From Vulcanimicrobiota bacterium (GTDB taxonomy: Bacteria; Vulcanimicrobiota; Vulcanimicrobiia; Vulcanimicrobiales; Vulcanimicrobiaceae), in assembly GCA_003168375.1 (NCBI GenBank), contig PMSI01000003.1, forward strand, positions 558,001 through 622,000: a stretch of 64,000 nucleotides of DNA, read 5' to 3'. Below are positions 13,855-50,205 of this stretch, piece after piece. The notes under the pieces are model-generated. The model searched no databases and had not been told where the DNA came from. It worked only from the letters and a program-made list of their open reading frames with translations. Position 1 is the first letter of the stretch, and each line of letters begins with the position of its first letter. Position numbers and translations under genes: made by a program.

Positions 13855-15485
13855 GCGCCCGGGGATTCGCGGCGGTCCTTACGATCGCGCTCGCCGTCAG
13901 TGGCTGCGCCGGCAGCTCGCGCGCCGTTCCGGCGGCGCGCCACGGGGCAACCGCGGCGCGCGTGGCGGTCAGCTTCGTCATGCACTGGCCGAGCCGCGCG
14001 CAGAGCGCGCACCGGCGGCCCGCGTTCGTCTCGCCGTCGACGGCGAGCGTCATCGTCGAGGTGAACCCGGACGCGGCGAGCGCCGGTCCGGTGACGTTCT
14101 CCAACGCGCCGGCGGGCGGCGGCACCTCCACGGTTGCAATCGACGCACCGCCGGGTGCCGACATCTTCGTCATCTCGCTCTACGATGCGCCGCAGAGTGC
14201 CGGCGAGACGAGTGCGAGCGGCAGCGAGCTCGGCCGCGTTCGCGTCGCGCAGACCATCACCGCGAACGCGACCAACACCCTGAGCGCGACGGTGATCGGG
14301 ACGGTCGCCGCGATCCGCATCGGGCCGCTTCCGAATCAGAGCAACGTCCTGCCGGTCGCGGGCTCGAGCCCGGCGGCATACGAGCTGGTCGGCCGCGCGC
14401 CTGCGACCTTCGCCGTCGCCCCGCTCGACGTCGACGGCAACGTCATCGTGCAGCCCGACGCGCCGCCGGCGATCGCGCTCGCTCCGAACGTCCGCGCGAC
14501 TGGGATTCTCACGGTGACGCCGGTGAGCGGCACGACGGATCAGTTCACCGTCCAAGCCGTCGCGGCGAACACGACGACGTATCCGACCTCGCTCACGGCG
14601 ACGGCGACCGACGCGAACGGCAACATCGCGACGAGCTCGACCGTCGCCGACGTAACGAGCGCCGTCTACGTGGCGTACGCGAACGGCGGAGCACCCGCGG
14701 TTGCGCGCTTCGATGCGCACGGGACGCCGCTCCCACTCCCCGCCGGCGGGTTCCCGGGTCTCGACAATCCGGTCGCGCTCGCCTACGATCCCGACGACCG
14801 CGAGATCCTGGTCGCCGATGCCGCGCTCGGCAAGGTTCTCGCGTTTGACGAGGCCGGAACGCCGCTCGCGTCGTTCATCGTGCCGGCGATCGCCGGAGTG
14901 AACGGCGTCATCTACGATCCGCACAACGGCAACGTGTACGCGTCCGGGAGCGCAGGCGTGACGGTGTTCGCGCCAAGCGGCGGCGCGCCGCGCGGTGGCG
15001 TCCCCGCGTCGTTCGCCGCACCGAACGCGCAAGGGATCGCGTTTGTCGCGAGCTCGGCGACCAGCGCACTGAACCGGCTCGCGGTCGGCAGTGCTGCGGC
15101 GACGCCCGCGCTGCGCTTCTACTCCGAGAGCGGCTCGGCGGCAGGGAGCGTCACGCTTCCCGCGGCGCCGGTCGCCGTCGCGTACGCGGCGCCCGCCGGG
15201 GCGGGTCAAGTGCCGCCGACGACCGCGCAGCTCTACGTCGCGACGGCTGCGGGCATCCTCGCGCGCGACGCGTTCGGCGCAGCGGTCGCGACGGCCGCCG
15301 ACGCGGGCGCACCGTTCGGGATCGCCGTCGACCCGAACTTCGGCGAGCCGTTGGTGACCGAGCGCGGCACGAACGCGCTCACCGTCTACCTCGACGATCT
15401 CAGCGCCGTCGATCCGGCGCGTACGTTCACCACCCCGGCCTCGCTCGGCCTGACCCAACCGCAAGGAGTGTGCCATGTCTTCTAG
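13851..15485 (+). CDS. Lipoprotein with Ig-like and beta-propeller (NHL-like) parts
   Basis: 544 residues. The start is deduced: a TTG at 13851, overlapping the previous stop, gives SARGFAAVLTIALAVSGCAG, a clean lipoprotein signal with lipobox VSGC; the first in-frame ATG (13979) would lose it. Residues about 60-240 are Thr/Ser/Ala-rich beta segments; residues about 260-540 contain repeated blades (NPVALAYDPDDREILVAD, GVIYDPHNGNVYASG, GIAVDPNFGEPLVTE) as in NHL or SMP-30-like propellers. It likely sits on the outer face of a membrane and binds rather than catalyses. It overlaps the subtilase gene by 11 bases. Confidence 0.72.
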   Translation: MSARGFAAVLTIALAVSGCAGSSRAVPAARHGATAARVAVSFVMHWPSRAQSAHRRPAFVSPSTASVIVEVNPDAASAGPVTFSNAPAGGGTSTVAIDAPPGADIFVISLYDAPQSAGETSASGSELGRVRVAQTITANATNTLSATVIGTVAAIRIGPLPNQSNVLPVAGSSPAAYELVGRAPATFAVAPLDVDGNVIVQPDAPPAIALAPNVRATGILTVTPVSGTTDQFTVQAVAANTTTYPTSLTATATDANGNIATSSTVADVTSAVYVAYANGGAPAVARFDAHGTPLPLPAGGFPGLDNPVALAYDPDDREILVADAALGKVLAFDEAGTPLASFIVPAIAGVNGVIYDPHNGNVYASGSAGVTVFAPSGGAPRGGVPASFAAPNAQGIAFVASSATSALNRLAVGSAAATPALRFYSESGSAAGSVTLPAAPVAVAYAAPAGAGQVPPTTAQLYVATAAGILARDAFGAAVATAADAGAPFGIAVDPNFGEPLVTERGTNALTVYLDDLSAVDPARTFTTPASLGLTQPQGVCHVF

Positions 15486-35544: not shown

Positions 35545-36304
35545 AGCTCTCCAGCACCTCGTCGCGTAGGTCGTTCCACATCCGCGAGTAGAGCTCGGTG
35601 AAGCGCGGATCGAAGCGAACCTGCTCGATGTCGCGCGGCCGCGGCAGGGTGACGTCGTAGCGCGCCTTGACACGCCCGGGACCGGCGGTCATCACGACGA
35701 CCTCGTCCGCGAGCGCGATCGCCTCTTCGAGGTCGTGCGTCACGAAGATGACCGTCTTTCGCGAACCCTGCCACAGGGTCAGCAGCTCAGCCTCCATCAG
35801 GTTGCGCGTCTGCACGTCGAGCGCCGCGAACGGCTCGTCCATCAGCAGGATCTCGGGATTGTAGACCAGCGTCTGCGCGAGCGCGACCCGCTTGCGCATC
35901 CCGCCGGAGAGCTGGTACGGAAACGACTGCTCGAAGCCGCGCAGTCCGACGCGGCCGATCCACTCCGCGACGCGCGAGCGCGCCTCCTCACCCCCGACCC
36001 CGCGCAGTTGCAGCGGCAAGAGCACGTTGTCGCGGACGGTTTTCCACGGCAGCAGCGCGTCGCGCTGGAACAAAAACCCAACGCCCTCGGTGATCCCGCC
36101 GACCGCGCTGCCACGCACGCTGATCGTGCCGCTCGTCGGGCGATCGAGCCCCGAGATCAGGGAGAGCGTCGTCGACTTTCCGCAGCCCGACGGCCCGACC
36201 AGCGCGACGAAGCGTTCCGGCGCGACGTCCAGGTTCACGTCGCGCAGCGCGGTGTAGCCGGAGTCGAACGTCTTGGTAACGCCCGCGAGCGAGATGATCG
36301 TCAC
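35519..36304 (-). CDS. NitT/TauT-type ABC transporter ATPase
   Basis: 261 residues. Walker A GPSGCGKST (about 37-45), signature LSGGMRKR, Walker B ILLMDEPFAALD and the H loop FVTHDLEEA are all intact, matching SsuB/TauB. Its start overlaps the CoA-transferase stop by four bases (ATGA), and its end overlaps the permease. It energises uptake of the operon's anionic substrate. Confidence 0.94.
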   Translation of the reverse strand: MTIISLAGVTKTFDSGYTALRDVNLDVAPERFVALVGPSGCGKSTTLSLISGLDRPTSGTISVRGSAVGGITEGVGFLFQRDALLPWKTVRDNVLLPLQLRGVGGEEARSRVAEWIGRVGLRGFEQSFPYQLSGGMRKRVALAQTLVYNPEILLMDEPFAALDVQTRNLMEAELLTLWQGSRKTVIFVTHDLEEAIALADEVVVMTAGPGRVKARYDVTLPRPRDIEQVRFDPRFTELYSRMWNDLRDEVLESYARANAAG

Positions 36305-37464
36305 GACGTCCCGATCCCCAGCTCCTCGAGCACCGCCGCCGTATCGGCGCCGATCGCGCGCGCGGCGTGGTTCGACACCGTCGGGTGCGCGCGGAAGCGC
36401 GTCACCGGCGCGGTCGTTGCCACGCGATTGCCGGCGTCGTCGCTCAAGTATCGCACGACGCCGCGGGAGCGGACCTGCTCGTCGGCGACGATGTCCGCGA
36501 TCGAGTAGACCGGCCCGGCGGGGACGCCTGCATCGGCGAGGATGCTCGACGCATCATCCGCGTCGAGCGTGATCGTCCACTCGGAGATCAGCGCGTCGAT
36601 CTCGGCGCCGTGCTCGGTGCGCCGGCGGTTGTCGCCGAAACGCGGGTCCTCGGCGAGCTCGGGGCGGCCCATCGCCGCGGCGAAGCGGCGAAAGAGCGAG
36701 TTCGCGTTCGCGCCGATCGCGATCCACCGGCCGTCCCGCGTCGGGTAGATGTTCGACGGCGCGACCGCGTTGTGCGCGTTGCCGCTGCGCTCGCGCACGA
36801 TCCCGAGGGCCTCGTATTCGGCGAGCATCCCTTGCGTCAGCGCGATGCTCGACTCGAGCAGCGAGATGTCGACGTAGTCGCCGACGCCGTCGCGATCGCG
36901 CGCGAGCAGCGCCGCCTGGATCCCGACCACGCAGTACAGCGCCGCCAGCTCGTCGGCGAGCGAGACGCCGACGCGCACCGGCGGGCGGTCCGGATAGCCG
37001 GTGACGTAGCGCAGTCCGCTCATCGACTCGGCGATGTTCCCGAACCCGGTGCGATTCCGGTACGGTCCGTCTTGGCCGTAGCCGCTGATCGAGGCATAGA
37101 CGAGCCGCGGGTTCTCCGCGCGCAGGCTGTCGTAGCCGAGACCCCACGCGTCGAGCCGGCCGGGACGGAAGTTCTCCAGCACGATGTCGCTGCGCAGCGC
37201 GATCTCGCGCACGGTCCGGCGGTCGGCCTCCGCGTGGAGGTCGAACTTCACGAACCGTTTGTTGCGGTTGTGCGACTTGAACCACCACGACGTCCCGTCG
37301 GCCGCCGGGGGACCCCACGTGCGGAGCCCGTCGCCTTCGTCGCTCTCGACCTTGATGACCTCGGCGCCGAGATCGGCCAACAGCCGTCCGGCCGCCGGGC
37401 CTGCCACCGACGAGCCCAGCTCCAGCACGCGGATACCGTCGAGCGGCGGACGATACGAGGTCAC
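36301..37464 (-). CDS. Class III (CaiB/BaiF family) CoA-transferase
   Basis: 387 residues, normal length. Family III enzymes move CoA between carboxylic acids through an aspartyl-CoA anhydride. Visible are VLELGSSVAGPAAGRLLADLGAEVIKVE (Rossmann-like start; quoted only in part here as RVLELGSSVAGPAAGRLLAD), the Asp-bearing GNIAESMSGLRYVTG and SLADELAALYCVVG region, and the C-terminal VPAGPVYSI. It lacks the GGGQPG-type glycine loop seen in the 46.5 kb enzyme, so it is not formyl-CoA transferase in the strict sense. It is first in an operon with an anion importer; substrate unknown. It is divergent from deoC with 30 bases between starts. Confidence 0.9.
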   Translation of the reverse strand: MTSYRPPLDGIRVLELGSSVAGPAAGRLLADLGAEVIKVESDEGDGLRTWGPPAADGTSWWFKSHNRNKRFVKFDLHAEADRRTVREIALRSDIVLENFRPGRLDAWGLGYDSLRAENPRLVYASISGYGQDGPYRNRTGFGNIAESMSGLRYVTGYPDRPPVRVGVSLADELAALYCVVGIQAALLARDRDGVGDYVDISLLESSIALTQGMLAEYEALGIVRERSGNAHNAVAPSNIYPTRDGRWIAIGANANSLFRRFAAAMGRPELAEDPRFGDNRRRTEHGAEIDALISEWTITLDADDASSILADAGVPAGPVYSIADIVADEQVRSRGVVRYLSDDAGNRVATTAPVTRFRAHPTVSNHAARAIGADTAAVLEELGIGTS

Positions 37465-42079: not shown

Positions 42080-42871
42080 TCAGCTCTTCGGCGGCGGCAG
42101 GTAGCGGTGGCTGTGCAGGATCGCTTGGCCCTGCGCGTTGGACATGAGCGTCACCATGTCGGCCGCTTCCTTCGGGTTCTTCGCCGCCTTCGGGATGAAG
42201 ATGTAGTACACCGAGTCGATGTTGTACTTGTCGGCAATCTGGATCGCTTGGTACTTCGACGGATCCACCGAGGAAACGAAGCCGATCGCAACGTCGGCCT
42301 CGCCCTTGTCGAGGCCCGTCAGCACATCATCCTCTGATTGCAGTTTATCGAAGTAGGCCGGTGAGTTACCGCGCACCTTCACCGGAAAGTCCGCGCCGAA
42401 AGCCGGATCGTCAGCGGCTTTTTTGAGCATCTGGCGCGCGAGCGTGCCGACCGCGGAGCCGGCCCCGTTCGCCATCCCAACGCGAATGCCGGGCTTCGCG
42501 AGGTCCGCTAGGCTCTTGACCTTCGTGCTCCCTCTCGGGATGATGAGCACTTCGCGATTGGTCAGGATCGCGACCGGCTTGTTGATGTGCGCGAGCACCT
42601 TGTCCGTCTGGTTCTTGCCGACGACCACGATGTCGATCGGATTGTCGGATTCGACGTCGGCCTGGATCGGACCGCCGCCCAGATACTTTGCCGAGATCGT
42701 AGCATCCGGATGCTTCTTTTCGTAGATCTTGATGAACTGCTCGAAAGGCGGTCTCACGCTGGAGGCGACTTCGGCAGTGAGCTGCACCTTGTCGGCAGCG
42801 GGTGCGGGCAGCGTCGTGAAGCCGAGGGCGCACGCCGACACGAGGACCGCGGAACGTAATAGCAACTTCAT
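42080..42871 (-). CDS. ModA-like periplasmic solute-binding protein of the acyl-CoA cluster
   Basis: 263 residues. Signal peptide 1-26 (ends PAPA-AD). Fold class is ModA/type II periplasmic binding protein: YLGGGPIQADVES, DIVVVGKNQTDKVL, GIRVGMANGAGSAVGTLARQ, EADVAIGFVSSVDPS. Molybdate-type binders end operons with ModB/ModC; none is here. It is instead 14 bases after the oxalate/formate-type MFS gene, so it may present a small carboxylate to that transporter or act as a sensor ligand-binder. Ligand unknown. Confidence 0.8.
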   Translation of the reverse strand: MKLLLRSAVLVSACALGFTTLPAPAADKVQLTAEVASSVRPPFEQFIKIYEKKHPDATISAKYLGGGPIQADVESDNPIDIVVVGKNQTDKVLAHINKPVAILTNREVLIIPRGSTKVKSLADLAKPGIRVGMANGAGSAVGTLARQMLKKAADDPAFGADFPVKVRGNSPAYFDKLQSEDDVLTGLDKGEADVAIGFVSSVDPSKYQAIQIADKYNIDSVYYIFIPKAAKNPKEAADMVTLMSNAQGQAILHSHRYLPPPKS

Positions 42872-42885
42872 AAAATACCTATTCC

Positions 42886-44202
42886 TTACGGTGTAGAAGG
42901 CGCCGGAGAGATGCCTGGCCCGCCCGTGAAACCGCTCTCAGCGTCCGCTTTGCGCGCACGCATCGGCTTGATGACGAACATGGCGATCAGCGCTGCGCAC
43001 ACATTCAACGCAGCCGCGGTCTGAAAGATCGGCACCCAGCTGCCGGTGGCGTCCTTGATGATGTTTGCGAACGGAACGAGGAGTGCGGCCGTCCCCTTCG
43101 CCGTGTACAGGAAGCCGTAGTTCGTGGTTGCGAACTTGCGGCCGTACGTGTCGGCGTTCAGCGACGGGAACAGACTGAAGATCTCGCCGTACGTGAAGAA
43201 CACCAGCCCCGACATGATCACGAACCAATACGGGTTCGCGGCGACCTTGATGAACAGCAAGATGATGAGGGCCTGACCGCCGAACGCGATGAACATCGTG
43301 TTCTCTCGACCGATCCGGTCGGAGAGCCAGCCGAAGGCCGGTCTGGCCAGGCCGTTGAGAACGCGGTCGAAGACCAGCGCCCACTGCAGCGCGGGTAGCA
43401 TGATCAGCAACAGCGTGACCGGGACTTCGTCGACGATGTAGTCGCGAGCGATCGGTGCCAGCTGCGCCGTTGCCATGACGCCGCCGATCGCGACACACAT
43501 CATGGCCAGGTACATGACGTAGAACAGCGGCGTCTTGAGCATCTCGCCCGGACGGAAGTCGCGAAGCGTCTGTTTGAGCGCCGTCGACTTGGCCGCCGCC
43601 GGAACCTCACCCGGGAGCGGCGCACGCAGCATCAAGCCGACGAGCACGACCACGATACCTTGAACGATACCGAAGACCAAGAACGTACGCTGGTAGCCCG
43701 CGTTCAGGACCATCTGCGCGATCGGAACGATCGTAATCGCTGAACCGGCGCCAAAGCCCGCCGCCGTCAGCCCGGCCGCAAGGCCGCGCCGGTCCGGGAA
43801 CCACTTCAGCGCCTGACCGACGGTGCAGCCGTACACGATCCCGGCGCCGATGCCGCCGATCGCGGAACCGATGTAGAACGTCCAGAGCGAGGTCGCGAAC
43901 GAGAACATCACCCAGGAGATGCCGACGAGCACGCCGCCGACCATGGTGATCTTGGTCGGGCCGAACCGGTCGATGATGTAGCCCTCGACCGGGACCAGCC
44001 AGGTCTCGACGACGACGAAGGTGGTGAACGAGACTTGGATCGCCGCCGTCGACCAGTGGAACTGGTCCTTGATCGGGTTCACGAACAGCGTCCAGCCGTA
44101 TTGCAGGTTGGCAATCGCGATCATCGCGACGATGCCGAGAATCAACTGGAACCAGCGGTTCCGGATGGGACTACTCGGCGCCATGGCCGTGGTACTCGTC
44201 AT
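42886..44202 (-). CDS. MFS transporter, oxalate/formate antiporter (OFA) family
   Basis: 438 residues with 12 hydrophobic segments. OFA features: GWTLFVNPIKDQF after the first helix, GSAIGGIGAGIVYGC, KWFPDRRGLAAGLTAAGFG, and in the second half DRVLNGLARPAFGWLSDRIG and the charged Lys in FLYTAKGTAAL, equivalent to the substrate-binding Lys of OxlT. In OxlT, uptake of oxalate and exit of formate conserve energy. It starts a new transcript with its own operator-like site (44274-44291) downstream of the acyl-CoA synthetase gene. Confidence 0.9.
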   Translation of the reverse strand: MTSTTAMAPSSPIRNRWFQLILGIVAMIAIANLQYGWTLFVNPIKDQFHWSTAAIQVSFTTFVVVETWLVPVEGYIIDRFGPTKITMVGGVLVGISWVMFSFATSLWTFYIGSAIGGIGAGIVYGCTVGQALKWFPDRRGLAAGLTAAGFGAGSAITIVPIAQMVLNAGYQRTFLVFGIVQGIVVVLVGLMLRAPLPGEVPAAAKSTALKQTLRDFRPGEMLKTPLFYVMYLAMMCVAIGGVMATAQLAPIARDYIVDEVPVTLLLIMLPALQWALVFDRVLNGLARPAFGWLSDRIGRENTMFIAFGGQALIILLFIKVAANPYWFVIMSGLVFFTYGEIFSLFPSLNADTYGRKFATTNYGFLYTAKGTAALLVPFANIIKDATGSWVPIFQTAAALNVCAALIAMFVIKPMRARKADAESGFTGGPGISPAPSTP

Positions 44203-44308: not shown

Positions 44309-46456
44309 CTAGAGCAGCCCCGCTGCCCGAGCCCAGCGGTACTTGGCGCCCAGCGCCGCGACCATCGTTTCCGTATTGTACGGATACGCCGGAATCTTGT
44401 GGTCGAAGAGGTATTCGCTCGCCTCTTCCACCTCGACGTCACCGGCAAGGGACGCCACGACGGGCTTGTCGATCCCCTTGGCGCGGAACTCCTCGACGAC
44501 TTCGACCACGAGCTTTGCGAAGACCATCGGCGGGGTCACGATCGTGTGCCAGTAGCCGAGGATCAGTGCGTGGATGCGAGGGTCTTCGAGTCCGAGCCGG
44601 ATCGTGTTCTGGTAGGTCTTCGGGGGTTCGCCGCCGGTGATGTCGACCGGATTGCCGGAGGCGCCGAACGGCGGTATGAACTTCTTGAACGCCTCGTCGA
44701 GATCGGGATCGAACTTCATCAGGGTGAGGCCGGCGTCGACGACCGAGTCCGAGAGCAGCACGCCGGAACCGCCGGCTCCCGTGATGATGACGACGTTCTC
44801 GCCCTTCGGCGTGGGCAGGATCGGGACGGCGCGCGCGAACTGGAGCAGCTCGTTCAGGCCGCGGGCGCGGATGACGCCGCTCTGCCGCAGAACGTCGTCG
44901 TAGATCTTGTCGTTCCCGGCGAGCGCGCCGGTGTGCGAGCTCGCCGCACGCGCGCCGAGCTCCGTCCGGCCGGCTTTGAGCACGATGATCGGCTTCTTCT
45001 TCGACACGCGCTTCGCGACGTCGGCGAACGACCGGCCGTCCTTGAGGTCTTCCATGTGCATCGCGATCGCTTGCGTCGCGTCGTCCTGCTCGAAGAACGT
45101 CAGCAGATCGTCCTCGTCGATGTCGGCCTTGTTGCCGAGCCCGACGATCGCAGAGACGCCCATCTTGGCCGAGCGGCTGAAGCCGATGATCGCCATCCCG
45201 ACGCCGCCCGACTGCGAGGACAGCGCGACGCTGCCCTTGACGTCGTACGGCGTGCAGAACGTAGCGCACAAATCCTTGGGCGTGTAGTAGAAGCCGTAGA
45301 TGTTCGGGCCCATCAGGCGCACGTTGTACTTGCGCCCGATCGCCTGGATCTCGAGCTGACCCTCTTCGTTCCCGGTCTCGGCGAAGCCGGACGGGATGAG
45401 CACGGCGCCCGGGACCTGCTTCTCGCCGCACTCGACCAGCGCGGCCGCGACGAACTTCGCCGGAATCGCGAACACGGCGACGTCGACGATCCCGGGGATG
45501 TCCTTGACCGACGGGTACGCTTTGTAGCCGAGGATCTCATCGGCTTTCGGGTTGATCGGGTAGATCTGGCCCTTGTAGCCCCCGTTGATGAGGTTCTTCA
45601 TCACCGAGTTGCCGATCTTGCCGTCTTCGCTCGATGCGCCGATCACGGCGACCGCATCCGGCCGCATGATGCGGTTCATCGCGCGCACGATCTCGTCTTG
45701 CGAGTAGCGCTGGCGCGGCGCCGGCGGGTTGAAGTCGACCAGGATGCGCACGTCGACGGCGGTCGCGCCCTTGGGCGTCGCGAACACCGGGTTGAGGTCG
45801 ACTTCGCTGATCTCGGGGAAGTCGGTAACCAGCTGCGAGACGGCTTCGATGATCCCCGCGAGCGCCTCGCGGTCGACGGGTTCCGATCCGCGCACGCCCT
45901 TGAGCATCTCGGCGGCCTGGATCCCGTCGAGCATCGAGAAGGCGTCCTGGCGCGACGCCGGCGCGAGCCGGAACGTGACGTCCTTCAGCACTTCGACCAG
46001 CACGCCGCCGAGGCCGAACGCGACCAGCTTCCCGAAGCTCTGGTCGGTAACCGCACCGACGATCACTTCTTGCGCACCGGTCGGCAGCATCTGCTGAACC
46101 TGCACGCCGCTGATCTTGGCGTTCGCCTGATATCTCTTCGCGTTGGCGACGATCGTGTCGTAGCCGCTGCGCACGCTTTGCGTGTCCTTCACGCCGACCA
46201 GCACACCGCCGGCCTCGGTCTTGTGCAAGATCTCCGGCGAGACGATCTTGAGCACGACCGGGAATCCCATTTGCTCGGCAAGTTGCGCCGCGGCATCGGC
46301 CGACGTCGCCAGGCCTTCCTGCGGCACCGGGATGCCGTAGGCGTCGGCGACCTCCTTCGCCTCCGGCGCGCTGAGCGCACTGCGGTTCTCCGCTTTGACG
46401 CGATCGAGGACCGCGCGGACCGCGGCCTGATTGCGAGTCTGACGCTCGAGCAGCAT
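44309..46456 (-). CDS. ADP-forming acyl-CoA synthetase, fused subunits
   Basis: 715 residues. Order: ATP-grasp domain first (about 15-235, GFPVVLKIVSPEILHKTEAGGV), then CoA-binding Rossmann domain (about 260-400, RPDAVAVIGASSEDGKIGNS), then the succinyl-CoA-ligase-like domain with the phospho-His region SSHTGALAGND. The reversed order and single chain are normal for this superfamily. It either activates a carboxylate with ATP and CoA or recovers ATP from an acyl-CoA. Placed 14 bases after the CoA-transferase gene in a decarboxylase/lyase operon, the substrate is likely oxalate, formate or a short 2-hydroxy acid, which is inference. Confidence 0.88.
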   Translation of the reverse strand: MLLERQTRNQAAVRAVLDRVKAENRSALSAPEAKEVADAYGIPVPQEGLATSADAAAQLAEQMGFPVVLKIVSPEILHKTEAGGVLVGVKDTQSVRSGYDTIVANAKRYQANAKISGVQVQQMLPTGAQEVIVGAVTDQSFGKLVAFGLGGVLVEVLKDVTFRLAPASRQDAFSMLDGIQAAEMLKGVRGSEPVDREALAGIIEAVSQLVTDFPEISEVDLNPVFATPKGATAVDVRILVDFNPPAPRQRYSQDEIVRAMNRIMRPDAVAVIGASSEDGKIGNSVMKNLINGGYKGQIYPINPKADEILGYKAYPSVKDIPGIVDVAVFAIPAKFVAAALVECGEKQVPGAVLIPSGFAETGNEEGQLEIQAIGRKYNVRLMGPNIYGFYYTPKDLCATFCTPYDVKGSVALSSQSGGVGMAIIGFSRSAKMGVSAIVGLGNKADIDEDDLLTFFEQDDATQAIAMHMEDLKDGRSFADVAKRVSKKKPIIVLKAGRTELGARAASSHTGALAGNDKIYDDVLRQSGVIRARGLNELLQFARAVPILPTPKGENVVIITGAGGSGVLLSDSVVDAGLTLMKFDPDLDEAFKKFIPPFGASGNPVDITGGEPPKTYQNTIRLGLEDPRIHALILGYWHTIVTPPMVFAKLVVEVVEEFRAKGIDKPVVASLAGDVEVEEASEYLFDHKIPAYPYNTETMVAALGAKYRWARAAGLL

Positions 46457-46470
46457 TTCTTCCGGTTCTC

Positions 46471-47748
46471 CTACAGCACGCCGGCGGCGTGGAGCGCTTT
46501 CGCGTCCTTACCGTCCCAGCCGATCTCTTTGAGGATTTCTTCGTTGTGCTCGCCCAGCAGCGGCGAGGTCTTGATCTCGACCGGCGTGTCGGAGAGCACC
46601 AACGGGCAGCCGACGGTCTTGAACGTCCCGCGCTCGGGATGGTACACGTCGGCGATCATCCCGCGCGCGCGGAGCGAATCGTCTTCGATGAGATCCTTCG
46701 TGCTCAGGATCGGTCCGCACGGGACTCCGACCTCGTTGAGCGCATCGAGCACCTCGAACTTGGTGCGTCCCTTCGTCCAGTCTTCGACGACGCCGAACAC
46801 GTCGTCCAAGTGTTTGAGGCGCGCCGCCGGCGACGCGAACGCGGGATCTTCGGCCAGCTCCGGACGGCCGATCAACTTCGCGAGCGGGCCCCAGACCTGC
46901 GGTTGGATGATCACGTAGACGTAATCGTTCTCACCGCCCCCCAGGGTCTTGAGGGCCGAACCGGGCTGGCCGCCGCCCGATGCGTTCCCCGAGCGCGGCA
47001 CGTAGTCGGCGAACGTCTTGTTCGGATACTCGCGCAGCGGTCCGTGCGCGAGCCGCTGCTGATCGCGAATCTTGACGCGAATCAGGTTCAGCACCGAGTC
47101 TTGCATCGCGACCGAGATGCGCTGGCCGCGCCCGGTGTGGGTGCGCTGGTAGAGCGCGGCCAGGATCGCCGCGACCATGTGGATCCCGCTCCCGGAGTCG
47201 CCGATCTGCGGGCCGGAACTCGTCGGCGGGCCCTCGGGCCAGCCGGTCGTGCTCATCCCACCGCCCATCGCCTGCGCGACGGTCTCGTAGGCCTTGAAGT
47301 CCTCGTATTTGCCGGGGCCGAAGCCCTTGATCGACGCGTACGACATGCGCGGGTTGATCTCGCGGATGCGGTCCCAGGTGAAGCCCTGGCGGTCGAGCAC
47401 GCCCGGGCCGAAGTTCTCGACCAGCACGTCGCAGTGCGCGATGAGCCGCTCGAAGATCGCCTTCCCGTCGGGCGTCTTCGTGTTGAGCGTGATGCTGCGC
47501 TTGTTGCAGTTCAGCATCGTGAAGTACAGGCTGTCGACGTCGGGGATGTCCTGCAGTTGACCGCGCGTGATGTCGCCGCGGCCCGGCAACTCGACCTTGA
47601 TGACGTCGGCGCCGAGCCAGGCCAGGATCTGCGTGCACGAGGGGCCGGCCTGGACGTGCGTCATGTCGAGTATCTTGACGCCGTCGAGCGCTTTGCGGAC
47701 GTGCTGTCCGTCCTGCGCGCCGTCCGCGGGTGCGCCGTTCGAGCTCAT
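46471..47748 (-). CDS. Class III CoA-transferase, formyl-CoA transferase-like
   Basis: 425 residues from the ATG at 47748 (a GTG one codon earlier is possible). Matches Frc: [41 protein letters not shown], the catalytic-Asp motif GDSGSGIHM (about 190) and the glycine loop ASGGGQPG near 265, which closes over the active site in formyl-CoA transferase. It would move CoA from formyl-CoA to an incoming acid such as oxalate. Start is four to seven bases after the lyase stop, in the same operon. Other acid pairs (e.g. succinate/oxalate) are possible. Confidence 0.85.
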
Positions 47749-47754
47749 CACGCC

Positions 47755-49482
47755 CTACTTGTACATCGTCTGGTTCATCGTCCCCGGAGCGAACTCGTTG
47801 GGGTCGATCCAGACGTTGATCAGGGCGACCTTCCCGGAGGCCATGGATTCACGCGCGCGCTCGAGGGCGGGCCGAATCTGCTTGGGATCGCGCACCGCTT
47901 CGCCGTAGCCGCCGAGCATCTGCGCGAACTTCTCGAAGTCGACATCGCCGAGGTAGTTGCCGATGTCGCCCTTCTCCTTGCCGTACTTCATGATCTGACC
48001 GGCGCGGATTTGGTTCATGAACGAGTTGTTGCCGATGATCCCGATGAACGGCAGGTCGAAACGGTTGGCCGTCTGGATGTCCCAGCCGGTCATGCCGAAG
48101 GTGCCGTCGCCGAACAGACACACGACCTCTTTGTCGGGCTCGGCGAGCTTCGACGCCATCGCGAACGAGACGCCGACGCCGAGCGTGCCGAGCGGACCCG
48201 GATCCATCCACAGACCGGCACCCTTCGGCCACACGATCCCGCCCGCGGCGGTCACGACGTCGCCGCCGTCGCCGATGAAGCGCGTGTTCTCGGTCAGGAA
48301 CTCGTTGATCTCGTAGCCGAGCCGCAGGGGGTGGATCGGCATCGCGTCGTTCTTGATCTTGGGCAGGCGTGCGTCGTAGAGCTTCTTCTCTTCGGCGCGC
48401 AGTTCGTCGATCCAGGGCTGACGGCTCTTCGCGCCGTCCCGCAGTCGGCCGGACGCGGCCTGCGTCACGGCGCGCAGGATCGCACCGACGTCACCGACGA
48501 GGCCCAGCGAGATATCGCGGTTCTTGCCGACGGTGGCGTAGCCCATGTCGATCTGCACGACGGTCGGCGCCTTGAGCCGCTTGCCGTAGCTCATGCGGAA
48601 GTCGAACGGCGTACCGACGATCAGGATCACGTCGGCCTTGCCGAACGCATAGCCGCGCGTCAGCTGGAAACCGTGCGGATCGCTCGGCTGGAACGTGCCG
48701 CGGCCCGCGCCGTTCATGAACGCCGGGATGTTGAACGTGCGCGCGAACTCGTGCGCCGCCTCGGTCGCGCGGCAGGTCCACGTCTGCTGCCCGAAGAGCA
48801 CGGCAGGGCGCTCGGCCCTGATCAAAATGTCGGCCAGCTTCTCGATGTCGTTGGGATCGCCGATCGACTTCGTCGACGCGCGATAGTGCCCGCGCTGCGG
48901 GATGACCGCTTTGTCGAGCGGCACTTTGCCGTCGAGAATGTCGCGCCCGATCTCGAGGTACGACGGGCCGAACGAACCGTTGTGCGCTTCGCGGAACGCC
49001 ATCGCGATCATGTCGGCGACGCGCTCGGTCGTCACGACGCTGGAGGCGAACTTGGTGATCGGCTTCATGATCTCGACGTGCGGGAGATCCTGGAGCGAAC
49101 CCATCTTGTGCTGGTTCAGCGCGCCCTGGCCCCCGATCAGCAAGAACGGGCTCTCCGCGCGGAACGCGTTGGCGACGCCGGTCGTCGCGTTGGTCGTCCC
49201 GGGGCCGGCGGTGACGACGGCGCAGCCGGGCCTCCCGGTGACGCGCGCGTAGCCGTCGGCGGCGTGTGCCGCGACCTGCTCGTGCCGCACGTCGATGATC
49301 TTGATGCCCTCAGCCGTGCAGCCGTCGTAGATGTCGATGATATGACCGCCGCACAGCGTGAAGATCGCGTCGATGCCTTCGTTCTTCAACGCCTTCGCAA
49401 CGAGGTGGCCGCCGGAGATCGTCTGTGCCGGCTGGTCGGCATCGAGTTTCGGCAGGTCGGTAGCCGGTGCGGTCTGAGCCAT
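47755..49482 (-). CDS. ThDP-dependent oxalyl-CoA decarboxylase / 2-hydroxyacyl-CoA lyase
   Basis: 575 residues. Catalytic Glu in DVRHEQVAAHAADGYAR (about 68), Mg/ThDP motif GDGTFGM to GNNSF (about 475-505). By context (Frc-like transferase, OFA transporter) it would be oxalyl-CoA decarboxylase. But the N-terminal stretch IFTLCGGHIIDIYDG and the C-terminus INVWIDPNEFAPGTMNQ resemble 2-hydroxyacyl-CoA lyases, and the C-terminal Ser-Gly-Arg lid of classical Oxc is not present. Both reactions pass through or release formyl-CoA. I am confident of the superfamily and unsure of the substrate. Confidence 0.85.
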   Translation of the reverse strand: MAQTAPATDLPKLDADQPAQTISGGHLVAKALKNEGIDAIFTLCGGHIIDIYDGCTAEGIKIIDVRHEQVAAHAADGYARVTGRPGCAVVTAGPGTTNATTGVANAFRAESPFLLIGGQGALNQHKMGSLQDLPHVEIMKPITKFASSVVTTERVADMIAMAFREAHNGSFGPSYLEIGRDILDGKVPLDKAVIPQRGHYRASTKSIGDPNDIEKLADILIRAERPAVLFGQQTWTCRATEAAHEFARTFNIPAFMNGAGRGTFQPSDPHGFQLTRGYAFGKADVILIVGTPFDFRMSYGKRLKAPTVVQIDMGYATVGKNRDISLGLVGDVGAILRAVTQAASGRLRDGAKSRQPWIDELRAEEKKLYDARLPKIKNDAMPIHPLRLGYEINEFLTENTRFIGDGGDVVTAAGGIVWPKGAGLWMDPGPLGTLGVGVSFAMASKLAEPDKEVVCLFGDGTFGMTGWDIQTANRFDLPFIGIIGNNSFMNQIRAGQIMKYGKEKGDIGNYLGDVDFEKFAQMLGGYGEAVRDPKQIRPALERARESMASGKVALINVWIDPNEFAPGTMNQTMYK

Positions 49483-49521: not shown

Positions 49522-50205
49522 TTACAGGTCGTTGTCGTTCGCGTCGACGTGCGCTGCGAGCGCGAGCGCATGGTCGCGAACCAGACGTTCGGCCAAGTCG
49601 GCGTCGCGCTTCTCGAGCGCTTCGATGATGTGCATGTGGTCGACGATCGAGCGTTCGAAACGACGATCCTCAGCGATCGTGCGATGCCGGATGGAACGAA
49701 CGTGGATCAAGATCCCTTCGGCGGTGCGCCGCAGCGCCTCGCAGCCGGAGAGTTCGATGATGCGCTGGTGGAACCGGAGGTTGGCGTCCGAGTACTCGTC
49801 GAGGTTGGCCGCAATGCGACCGCCGTCGAAGGTGGCAAAGATCGATCGTAAGGAGGCGATCGCCGCCTCGCTGGTGTGGAGGGCGACGAGCCGCGCAGCC
49901 ATGCTCTCGAGCGCCGCCCAGACGACGATGATTTCCAGCAGCTCGGCTTTGCTCTTTCGCGCGATGAAGTATCCCCGGCGAGGGACGCTTCGTACCAGCG
50001 ACTCGTGCTCCAAACGAACCAGCGCCTCGCGGATCGGCGTGCGGCTGACCCCGAGCCGGGCGGCCAGCTCGCGTTCGTCGAGGCGCAGGTTCGCCTCGTC
50101 CATCTCGTAGAGGTTCGTCGCGGTGATCGCGCCGCGAATGGCATCGTACACCTGCGCCGAGAGGCTGGCGTCGGAGCGAATCGCAGCGAGGGCTAGGGCA
50201 GCCAT
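49522..50205 (-). CDS. GntR family regulator (FCD/FadR class) of the acyl-CoA cluster
   Basis: 227 residues, ATG with GGGAGG six bases upstream. Winged HTH at about 15-85 (LDERELAARLGVSRTPIREALVRLE), then an all-helical FCD domain with metal/ligand His in DANLRFHQRI and VDHMHIIEAL. FCD regulators usually bind a metabolic acid. It is first in the operon, 39 bases before the lyase gene. The palindrome at 50234-50252 overlaps its likely promoter, fitting autorepression relieved by the pathway substrate. Confidence 0.92.
   Translation of the reverse strand: MAALALAAIRSDASLSAQVYDAIRGAITATNLYEMDEANLRLDERELAARLGVSRTPIREALVRLEHESLVRSVPRRGYFIARKSKAELLEIIVVWAALESMAARLVALHTSEAAIASLRSIFATFDGGRIAANLDEYSDANLRFHQRIIELSGCEALRRTAEGILIHVRSIRHRTIAEDRRFERSIVDHMHIIEALEKRDADLAERLVRDHALALAAHVDANDNDL

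Follow-up and report, generated by a model that had tools for sequence, protein, structure and literature searches.

What does an ADP-forming type of acyl-CoA synthetase contribute to an operon for oxalate breakdown? The question arises in a 64,000-nucleotide stretch (the window) of a Vulcanimicrobiota genome (contig PMSI01000003.1, positions 558,001 to 622,000), where a fused beta-alpha nucleoside diphosphate (NDP)-forming acyl-CoA synthetase (ACD) is encoded next to a formyl-CoA transferase (Frc), a thiamine diphosphate (ThDP)-dependent enzyme and an oxalate/formate antiporter (OxlT). We consider it probable that this operon runs an oxalate CoA cycle, in which the ACD supplies CoA esters for priming and refilling and the ThDP enzyme serves as the decarboxylase. 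Judged from gene neighborhoods, several bacterial phyla have oxalate clusters in which the ACD and ThDP genes again occur as a pair. The oxalate CoA cycle itself is known; what would be new is a probable ATP-driven starter together with a replaced decarboxylase.

An NDP-forming acyl-CoA synthetase within an oxalate operon

Six genes form a run on one strand, with intergenic gaps, from the regulator to the solute-binding protein, of 39, 3, 14, 106 and 14 bp:

49522..50205, minus strand: GntR/FCD-family regulator (Pfam GntR and FCD), probable operon regulator
47755..49482, minus strand: ThDP-dependent enzyme, 575 aa (Pfam TPP_enzyme N/M/C), proposed second oxalyl-CoA decarboxylase family
46471..47751, minus strand: Frc (TIGR03253, 631.3 bits, cut-off 504), with a GGGQP glycine loop
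44309..46456, minus strand: ACD, 715 aa (ATG start, uninterrupted open reading frame (ORF), Pfam domains given below), candidate ATP-dependent CoA ligase for oxalate (or formate)
42886..44202, minus strand: OxlT of the major facilitator superfamily (MFS), 438 aa (TIGR04259, 581.5 bits, cut-off 335)
42080..42871, minus strand: solute-binding protein (Pfam SBP_bac_11), 14 bp past OxlT, perhaps a partner that binds oxalate

A sequence-only reading of the window had spoken of an oxalate-like operon, and this label stands, with Frc upstream and OxlT downstream of the ACD both above their cut-offs. The nearest solved chains to the window Frc were YfdW and formyl-CoA transferase, and its glycine-rich loop was shared by 81 of the 87 ORFs of the Frc cluster. 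The source genome (7 contigs totaling 4.43 Mb, completeness 97%) also encodes a formate dehydrogenase alpha subunit (Fdh-alpha) over its model cut-off. A promoter and terminator scan found no more sites than in shuffled sequence.

The same reading had identified an ADP-forming type of synthetase at 44309-46456, which the uninterrupted ORF, four Pfam domains and conserved histidines bear out. All four domains scored above their cut-offs: ATP-grasp_5 at residues 20-240 (279 bits), CoA_binding_2 at 268-389 (74), Succ_CoA_lig at 407-543 (169) and Ligase_CoA_2 at 555-715 (310). By this architecture the protein is classed as a beta-alpha fusion of the NDP-forming type, and its family suggests ADP rather than AMP as the product. 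H508 (in an SHT motif) and H78 (in an HK[TS][ED] motif), which we take to be the phosphorelay histidines after archaeal ACD work, were kept in 92/92 ORFs of the ACD cluster. The best solved relatives were 4-hydroxybutyrate--CoA ligase, 3-hydroxypropionate--CoA ligase (9y43) and the ACD 4xyl, presumably from Korarchaeum; the window protein shares the domains and both histidines of the latter two, and the beta-alpha order of 9y43. Unlike these enzymes, it belongs to a separate clade and lies below the named ligase equivalogs, scoring under the curated cut-off of all 13 NCBIfam models listed. Its structure model was poor (predicted local distance difference test, pLDDT, 65) and was set aside.

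The boundary of the clade was sharp. Identity to the window ACD was 66-78% in 16 plasmid records and 34% in the next; within the phylum, members of the clade were at least 70% identical and the next ACD-like matches at most 37%. As grouped by identity and neighborhood, the ACD thus constitutes a separate clade tied to oxalate operons.

The synthetase recurs beside formyl-CoA transferase in several phyla

The sequence-only reading would have been refuted by a lack of conserved linkage in other genomes; the linkage to oxalate genes does extend to them. We scanned one genome per species and retained the 80 best among 540 ACD relatives, so the sample is tilted toward close homologs; loci are numbered L020 and upward. 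Neighbors were called at identity floors of 50% for the ThDP enzyme and canonical oxalyl-CoA decarboxylase (OXC), 45% for Frc, 38% for OxlT, 60% for ACD, 40% for SucD, 35% for formate dehydrogenase (Fdh) and 30% for others. L049 is the same contig as L023, letter for letter, and was excluded from clustering. Frc lay within the fetched flanks of 70/80 ACD loci, and of 42/46 with full 10-kb flanks; the fetched stretch held no Frc at the other 10, several of which end at a contig border. Further neighbors were a GntR homolog (at least 30% identity; 57 loci), sucC- and sucD-like genes (30 and 31), OxlT (26) and formate dehydrogenase genes (21). A candidate oxalyl-CoA decarboxylase was found somewhere in the genome for 74 of the 80.

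The order ThDP-FRC-ACD recurred in eight further members of the phylum (L020-L023, L025-L027, L031), which argues that the arrangement of the operon is not due to chance. A survey of 149 phylum genomes placed the ACD clade (at least 70% identity) in 13, one gene being partial, and 12 of these 13 also had the ThDP enzyme. Plasmids carry the association as well. Of 13 plasmid neighborhoods inspected, 12 had Frc, four canonical OXC, six the ThDP family and three neither decarboxylase. Skermanella plasmids showed GntR-oxc-frc-ACD-sucCD, with formate dehydrogenase in addition in S. rosea, and a Streptomyces fungicidicus plasmid record showed ThDP-frc-ACD-OFA transporter. Many Bradyrhizobium loci were among the ACD carriers, and Cupriavidus metallidurans CH34 has a homolog at 76% identity.

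The synthetase would prime and refill the CoA cycle

We reasoned that the operon would work as follows. OxlT would import oxalate, Frc would move CoA from formyl-CoA onto oxalate, and the ThDP enzyme would convert oxalyl-CoA to formyl-CoA; formate would exit by OxlT or be oxidized by formate dehydrogenase. The cycle would require a CoA ester to start, and esters would be lost by formyl-CoA hydrolysis or by diversion of oxalyl-CoA to glyoxylate. Formyl-CoA is reported to have a very short life (PMC8511477). In Cupriavidus necator, the growth of mutants led to the proposal that ApbA2, a protein of the ApbA/PanE family, connects glyoxylate with oxalyl-CoA, and a frc-oxc deletion strain of this species does not grow on oxalate (PMC7486775). 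The ACD would top up the esters (acid + CoA + ATP -> acyl-CoA + ADP + Pi), with oxalate as the likeliest acid and formate second. Ester-making at the cost of one phosphate bond would suit this need with either decarboxylase. The substrate and direction of the ACD, and oxalyl-CoA as the substrate of the ThDP enzyme, are predictions.

The sequence-only reading had offered two roles for the ACD, cheap priming of the cycle or ATP harvest from formyl-CoA. Priming emerged as the better supported. In the harvest scheme the ACD runs formyl-CoA + ADP + Pi -> formate + CoA + ATP as a step coupled to decarboxylation, in a family that is reversible. Frc and the decarboxylase together neither add nor remove CoA esters, and every formyl-CoA spent on making ATP therefore has to be made good for one ATP equivalent or more. 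ATP would be gained on balance only if oxalyl-CoA entered by another route, for example from glyoxylate by oxalyl-CoA reductase working in reverse. CoA bookkeeping thus favors ATP-dependent priming and refilling, and it rules out net substrate-level phosphorylation from oxalate, so harvest during oxalate breakdown fell as a general claim. The glyoxylate route has some backing: ApbA/PanE-family genes (Pfam; named 2-dehydropantoate 2-reductases by NCBI models) occurred in 22/97 loci (14/39 ThDP-type, 5/41 OXC-type, 3/17 others), glyoxylate oxidation through oxalyl-CoA is possible in C. necator (PMC7486775), and Bradyrhizobium diazoefficiens, whose genus supplies many of the ACD loci, was proposed to route arabinose-derived glyoxylate to Frc and Oxc (PMC5996035). 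In the window's genome, a 47% homolog of the ApbA/PanE family lies ~143 kb from the operon, and a Gcl-like gene scores below its model cut-off (646 of 711 bits). The operon's own antiporter, above its cut-off, points instead to oxalate as the substrate, and overall we regard ATP harvest as unlikely.

Priming could also be indirect: the ACD would then be a plain acetate- or propionate-CoA ligase, and CoA would pass from acetyl-CoA onto oxalate by way of Frc or a different transferase. YfdE, which was proposed to prime the Escherichia coli oxalate cycle from acetyl-CoA, shows that this ester is a workable donor (PMC3720670), and the plasmid records annotate the protein as an acetate--CoA ligase family protein. 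However, the window ACD missed the acetate--CoA ligase alpha model (TIGR02717; 484.4 bits, cut-off 567.15) and the other listed ligase equivalogs alike, and the 65-93% identity that it retains across phyla within oxalate loci is more than one would expect of an acetate ligase with a general role. We judge this explanation improbable. That an ordinary acetate ligase came to lie here by accident is unlikely, given the distinct clade with its identity gap and the linkage.

The ThDP enzyme lies outside the OXC family

With priming by the ACD as the preferred reading, the cycle still requires a decarboxylase, and here the operon departs from the classical type that the sequence-only reading had assumed. 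The window ThDP enzyme reached 213.3 of 739.4 bits (TIGR03254) and 229 of 557 bits against two OXC models, and the window's genome held no OXC above cut-off. Nor did it reach the actinobacterial-type 2-hydroxyacyl-CoA lyase (HACL) model (NF058623; 331.2 bits, cut-off 600). Acetolactate synthase was considered as an identity and rejected; PRK05858 was the best NCBIfam model, yet scored 451 bits under a cut-off of 587. The predicted fold (pLDDT 82) matched HACL 6xn8 with VIA Z 41.8, OXC 2q27 with 40.9, benzaldehyde lyase with 40.0-40.3 and the Actinomycetospora HACL (AcHACL) 7pt1 with 39.5. HACL and OXC are thus tied, and the fold leaves the substrate undecided. In the tree, the placement of the ThDP family relative to OXC had moderate support (88/87 and 84/68) with long-branch warnings, and by that topology the two are not one exclusive clade.

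An alternative is that ThDP-type operons serve a 2-hydroxy acid such as glycolate or 2-hydroxyisobutyrate, which the ACD would activate, a ThDP lyase would cleave to formyl-CoA plus an aldehyde or ketone, and Frc would relieve of its CoA for recovery. A profile of 15 members was closest among solved chains to AcHACL (331 bits; other HACL at most 306, E. coli OXC 243), and an aldehyde dehydrogenase (Pfam) lay between Frc and OxlT in L029, with a similar ORF in L030; neither locus has an ACD nearby. Like AcHACL and the HACL/OXC superfamily, the window enzyme has the common fold, the ThDP glutamate (E68) and a glutamine (Q131) at the place of AcHACL Q128. Unlike AcHACL, it has isoleucine for the acid/base glutamate E493, as do 16/16 members, and this Ile492 was invariant in 15/15 aligned rows. 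OXC, too, is reported to have no such acid/base residue, its decarboxylation requiring no proton transfer (PMC8760513).

Gene order argues further against a 2-hydroxy acid. L083 (ThDP) and L100 (OXC), both Rhizobiales, have in common the order OxlT-Frc-decarboxylase-GntR-ACD. Phyllobacterium L088, L091 and L114 (ThDP) and Mesorhizobium L073 (OXC) likewise share sucDC-Frc-decarboxylase and ACD-sucCD-GntR, and so the same Frc, ACD and both sucCD pairs, although the transporter differs too (OxlT versus TctA). Of the 38 searched genomes with the ThDP gene, moreover, just one, described below, had OXC above cut-off. Operons of this kind for a 2-hydroxy acid therefore seem to us a poor prospect.

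OXC and the proposed second decarboxylase replace each other at ACD loci

We next considered oxalyl-CoA decarboxylation, the role given to the ThDP enzyme in the proposed oxalate cycle. At the 80 ACD loci, the decarboxylase was canonical OXC in 41, and a ThDP-family match was present in 24, of which 22 were intact; the ThDP matches in L058 (which bears OXC) and L076 turned out to be fragments. On a quick tree of 99 ACD proteins with SH-aLRT support (45 labeled OXC, 35 ThDP and 19 unlabeled), the label changes at least 8 times, and 6 of these changes are forced by well-supported branches. L067 (Rokubacteria) had been taken as ThDP-family because single-linkage clustering drew in a 33% relative; the tree groups it with a Bosea enzyme, so L067 is unlabeled, and this recount replaces an earlier 10 changes with 5 forced. 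On a Bosea plasmid (L189), a ThDP relative at 33% identity has another CoA transferase, MmgE/PrpD genes and isocitrate dehydrogenase as neighbors, and may belong to one more CoA-dependent ThDP pathway.

Whole-genome searches gave a complementary picture. OXC above cut-off appeared in 3 of the 40 genomes searched as the ThDP set (plasmid records with ThDP genes lay outside this search), and two of the three were Caballeronia without an intact ThDP gene at the locus: in L072 no ThDP gene was found there, and L076 has two ThDP fragments. The ThDP gene and OXC occurred together in 1/38 searched ThDP genomes, some gene copies being cut by contig ends. This sole double carrier, Burkholderia sp. WSM2230, has its OXC elsewhere, in a stretch that includes an Frc of its own. 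Conversely, at a threshold of E 1e-100 the ThDP enzyme was found in none of 40 searched genomes with OXC at the ACD locus (L099 was outside the search). OXC was present in 11/17 ACD genomes without a linked intact decarboxylase versus the 1/38 with a ThDP gene (Fisher p ~1e-6, kinship ignored); for seven Caballeronia-type genomes the corresponding figures were 2/2 versus 0/5 (p 0.048).

Remnants were also observed. In L058 a match to ThDP residues 17-85 (77% identity) immediately precedes OXC; in L108 a match to residues 549-575 (67%) immediately precedes Frc, with OXC elsewhere in the genome; and the L076 fragments cover residues 19-69 and 539-575. L058 and L108 are contigs of metagenome-assembled genomes (MAGs). 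The remnants have the look of ThDP genes that were lost in the presence of OXC. It is from complementary occurrence that we infer the ThDP enzyme to be a second oxalyl-CoA decarboxylase family. More tentatively, many soil and plant-associated bacteria may possess two unrecognized enzymes, an ADP-forming oxalate:CoA ligase that would act at the first step, for which a gene has been missing, and a separately derived oxalyl-CoA decarboxylase family that was swapped with OXC several times while ACD and Frc stayed; this broader proposal seems to us slightly less likely than not.

Observations that weigh against the proposed cycle

Several observations pull the other way. In O. formigenes OXC, Y120, E121 and Y483 position the oxalyl group (PMC7190790). 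This Tyr-Glu plus Tyr was kept in 12/12 OXC rows (L044, with a stop in that stretch, was omitted from the alignment) and is Leu-Gln plus Ile in 16/16 ThDP members, a difference from OXC that implies that an oxalyl-CoA decarboxylase here would hold its substrate in its own way. It is the weakest link in the argument for a second decarboxylase. Six of the 80 ACD genomes (L051, L059, L067, L070, L081, L094; four MAGs and two draft isolates) gave neither decarboxylase, although one of the searches matched no genome and so had no positive control; L067 does have a 43% ThDP relative elsewhere in its genome.

Other points concern the ACD. The clade was not found in 5/17 ThDP-bearing genomes of the phylum, and the ACD may thus be non-essential for the cycle. 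The sucCD-like pairs could supply CoA esters in its stead. Many known ACDs make ATP. The ApbA/PanE genes, finally, can be likened to C. necator ApbA2 at the family level only.

Relation to known systems

The proposed cycle resembles that of Oxalobacter and E. coli (Frc-OXC-OxlT; yfdXWUVE), with Frc and OxlT above their cut-offs, a net conversion of oxalate to formate and CO2 that would run through a CoA cycle, and a separate priming enzyme, for which YfdE was proposed in E. coli. It differs in that the proposed primer is an ADP-forming type of synthetase rather than an acetyl-CoA:oxalate CoA-transferase, and in that the decarboxylase is outside the OXC family. The plant enzyme AAE3 is AMP-forming and unrelated to ACD. 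As an oxalyl-CoA synthetase, it too makes oxalyl-CoA from oxalate (PMC7700444). The open-access literature yielded no account of this ACD or ThDP family in oxalate metabolism and no paper pairing 'formyl-CoA transferase' with 'ADP-forming', most subscription papers being outside its coverage.

A 2023 survey of oxalotrophy describes the initial oxalate CoA-transferase step as lacking an identified gene, and hypothesizes this enzyme and a 'formate-CoA hydrolase' with genes not known (PMC10192776). The synthetase, tied as it is to such operons across several phyla, offers a testable candidate for an enzyme that attaches CoA to oxalate through a different reaction. A survey based on oxc collected 1396 sequences in a single network at 50% identity (PMC7190790). 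Surveys built on oxc would miss a second decarboxylase family, and the capacity of soils to degrade oxalate could thus be underestimated. For the design of one-carbon pathways, activating formate or oxalate in an ADP-forming reaction would be of interest, and Bradyrhizobium on arabinose (PMC5996035) is a place to look for an ACD running in the reverse, ATP-yielding direction.

Neighboring genes

A gene for a fumarylacetoacetate-hydrolase-family protein (Pfam; L036 at 14459-15232, L045, L062 and others) was present in 17/39 ThDP-type, 1/41 OXC-type and 2/17 other loci; it directly follows the ACD in several and reaches no NCBIfam equivalog. Phyllobacterium, Labrys and some Mesorhizobium have two distinct sucCD-like pairs in the vicinity of their oxalate genes (L041, L060, L065, L066, L073, L088, L091 and L114). 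C. metallidurans (L036) has one pair, which passed succinate--CoA ligase models and just missed malate--CoA ligase beta (578 of 604 bits). A TctA-family transporter gene occurred in 22 loci of OXC type and three of ThDP type, namely L066, L073 (by Pfam for the latter) and 23 more, and is perhaps an alternative oxalate uptake system.

The pairing of a solute-binding protein with an MFS antiporter is unusual; the SBP_bac_11 and OxlT pair was also found in L020, L021, L023, L025 and L028 (39-98% identity). In the window, 4.6 kb past the solute-binding protein, 36301-37464 on the minus strand encodes a second class III CoA-transferase, with succinate--glutarate CoA-transferase as the closest model (313 of 750 bits). 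The aldehyde-dehydrogenase genes of the Eremiobacterota loci span 10094-11566 in L029 and 2924-4399 in L030, and L028 has formate dehydrogenase genes at that place. In Paraburkholderia terrae BS001, proximity to a fungus induces a second oxalate cluster, described with an antiporter and Frc and with no mention of oxc (PMC5209427); this cluster may be of the ThDP type.

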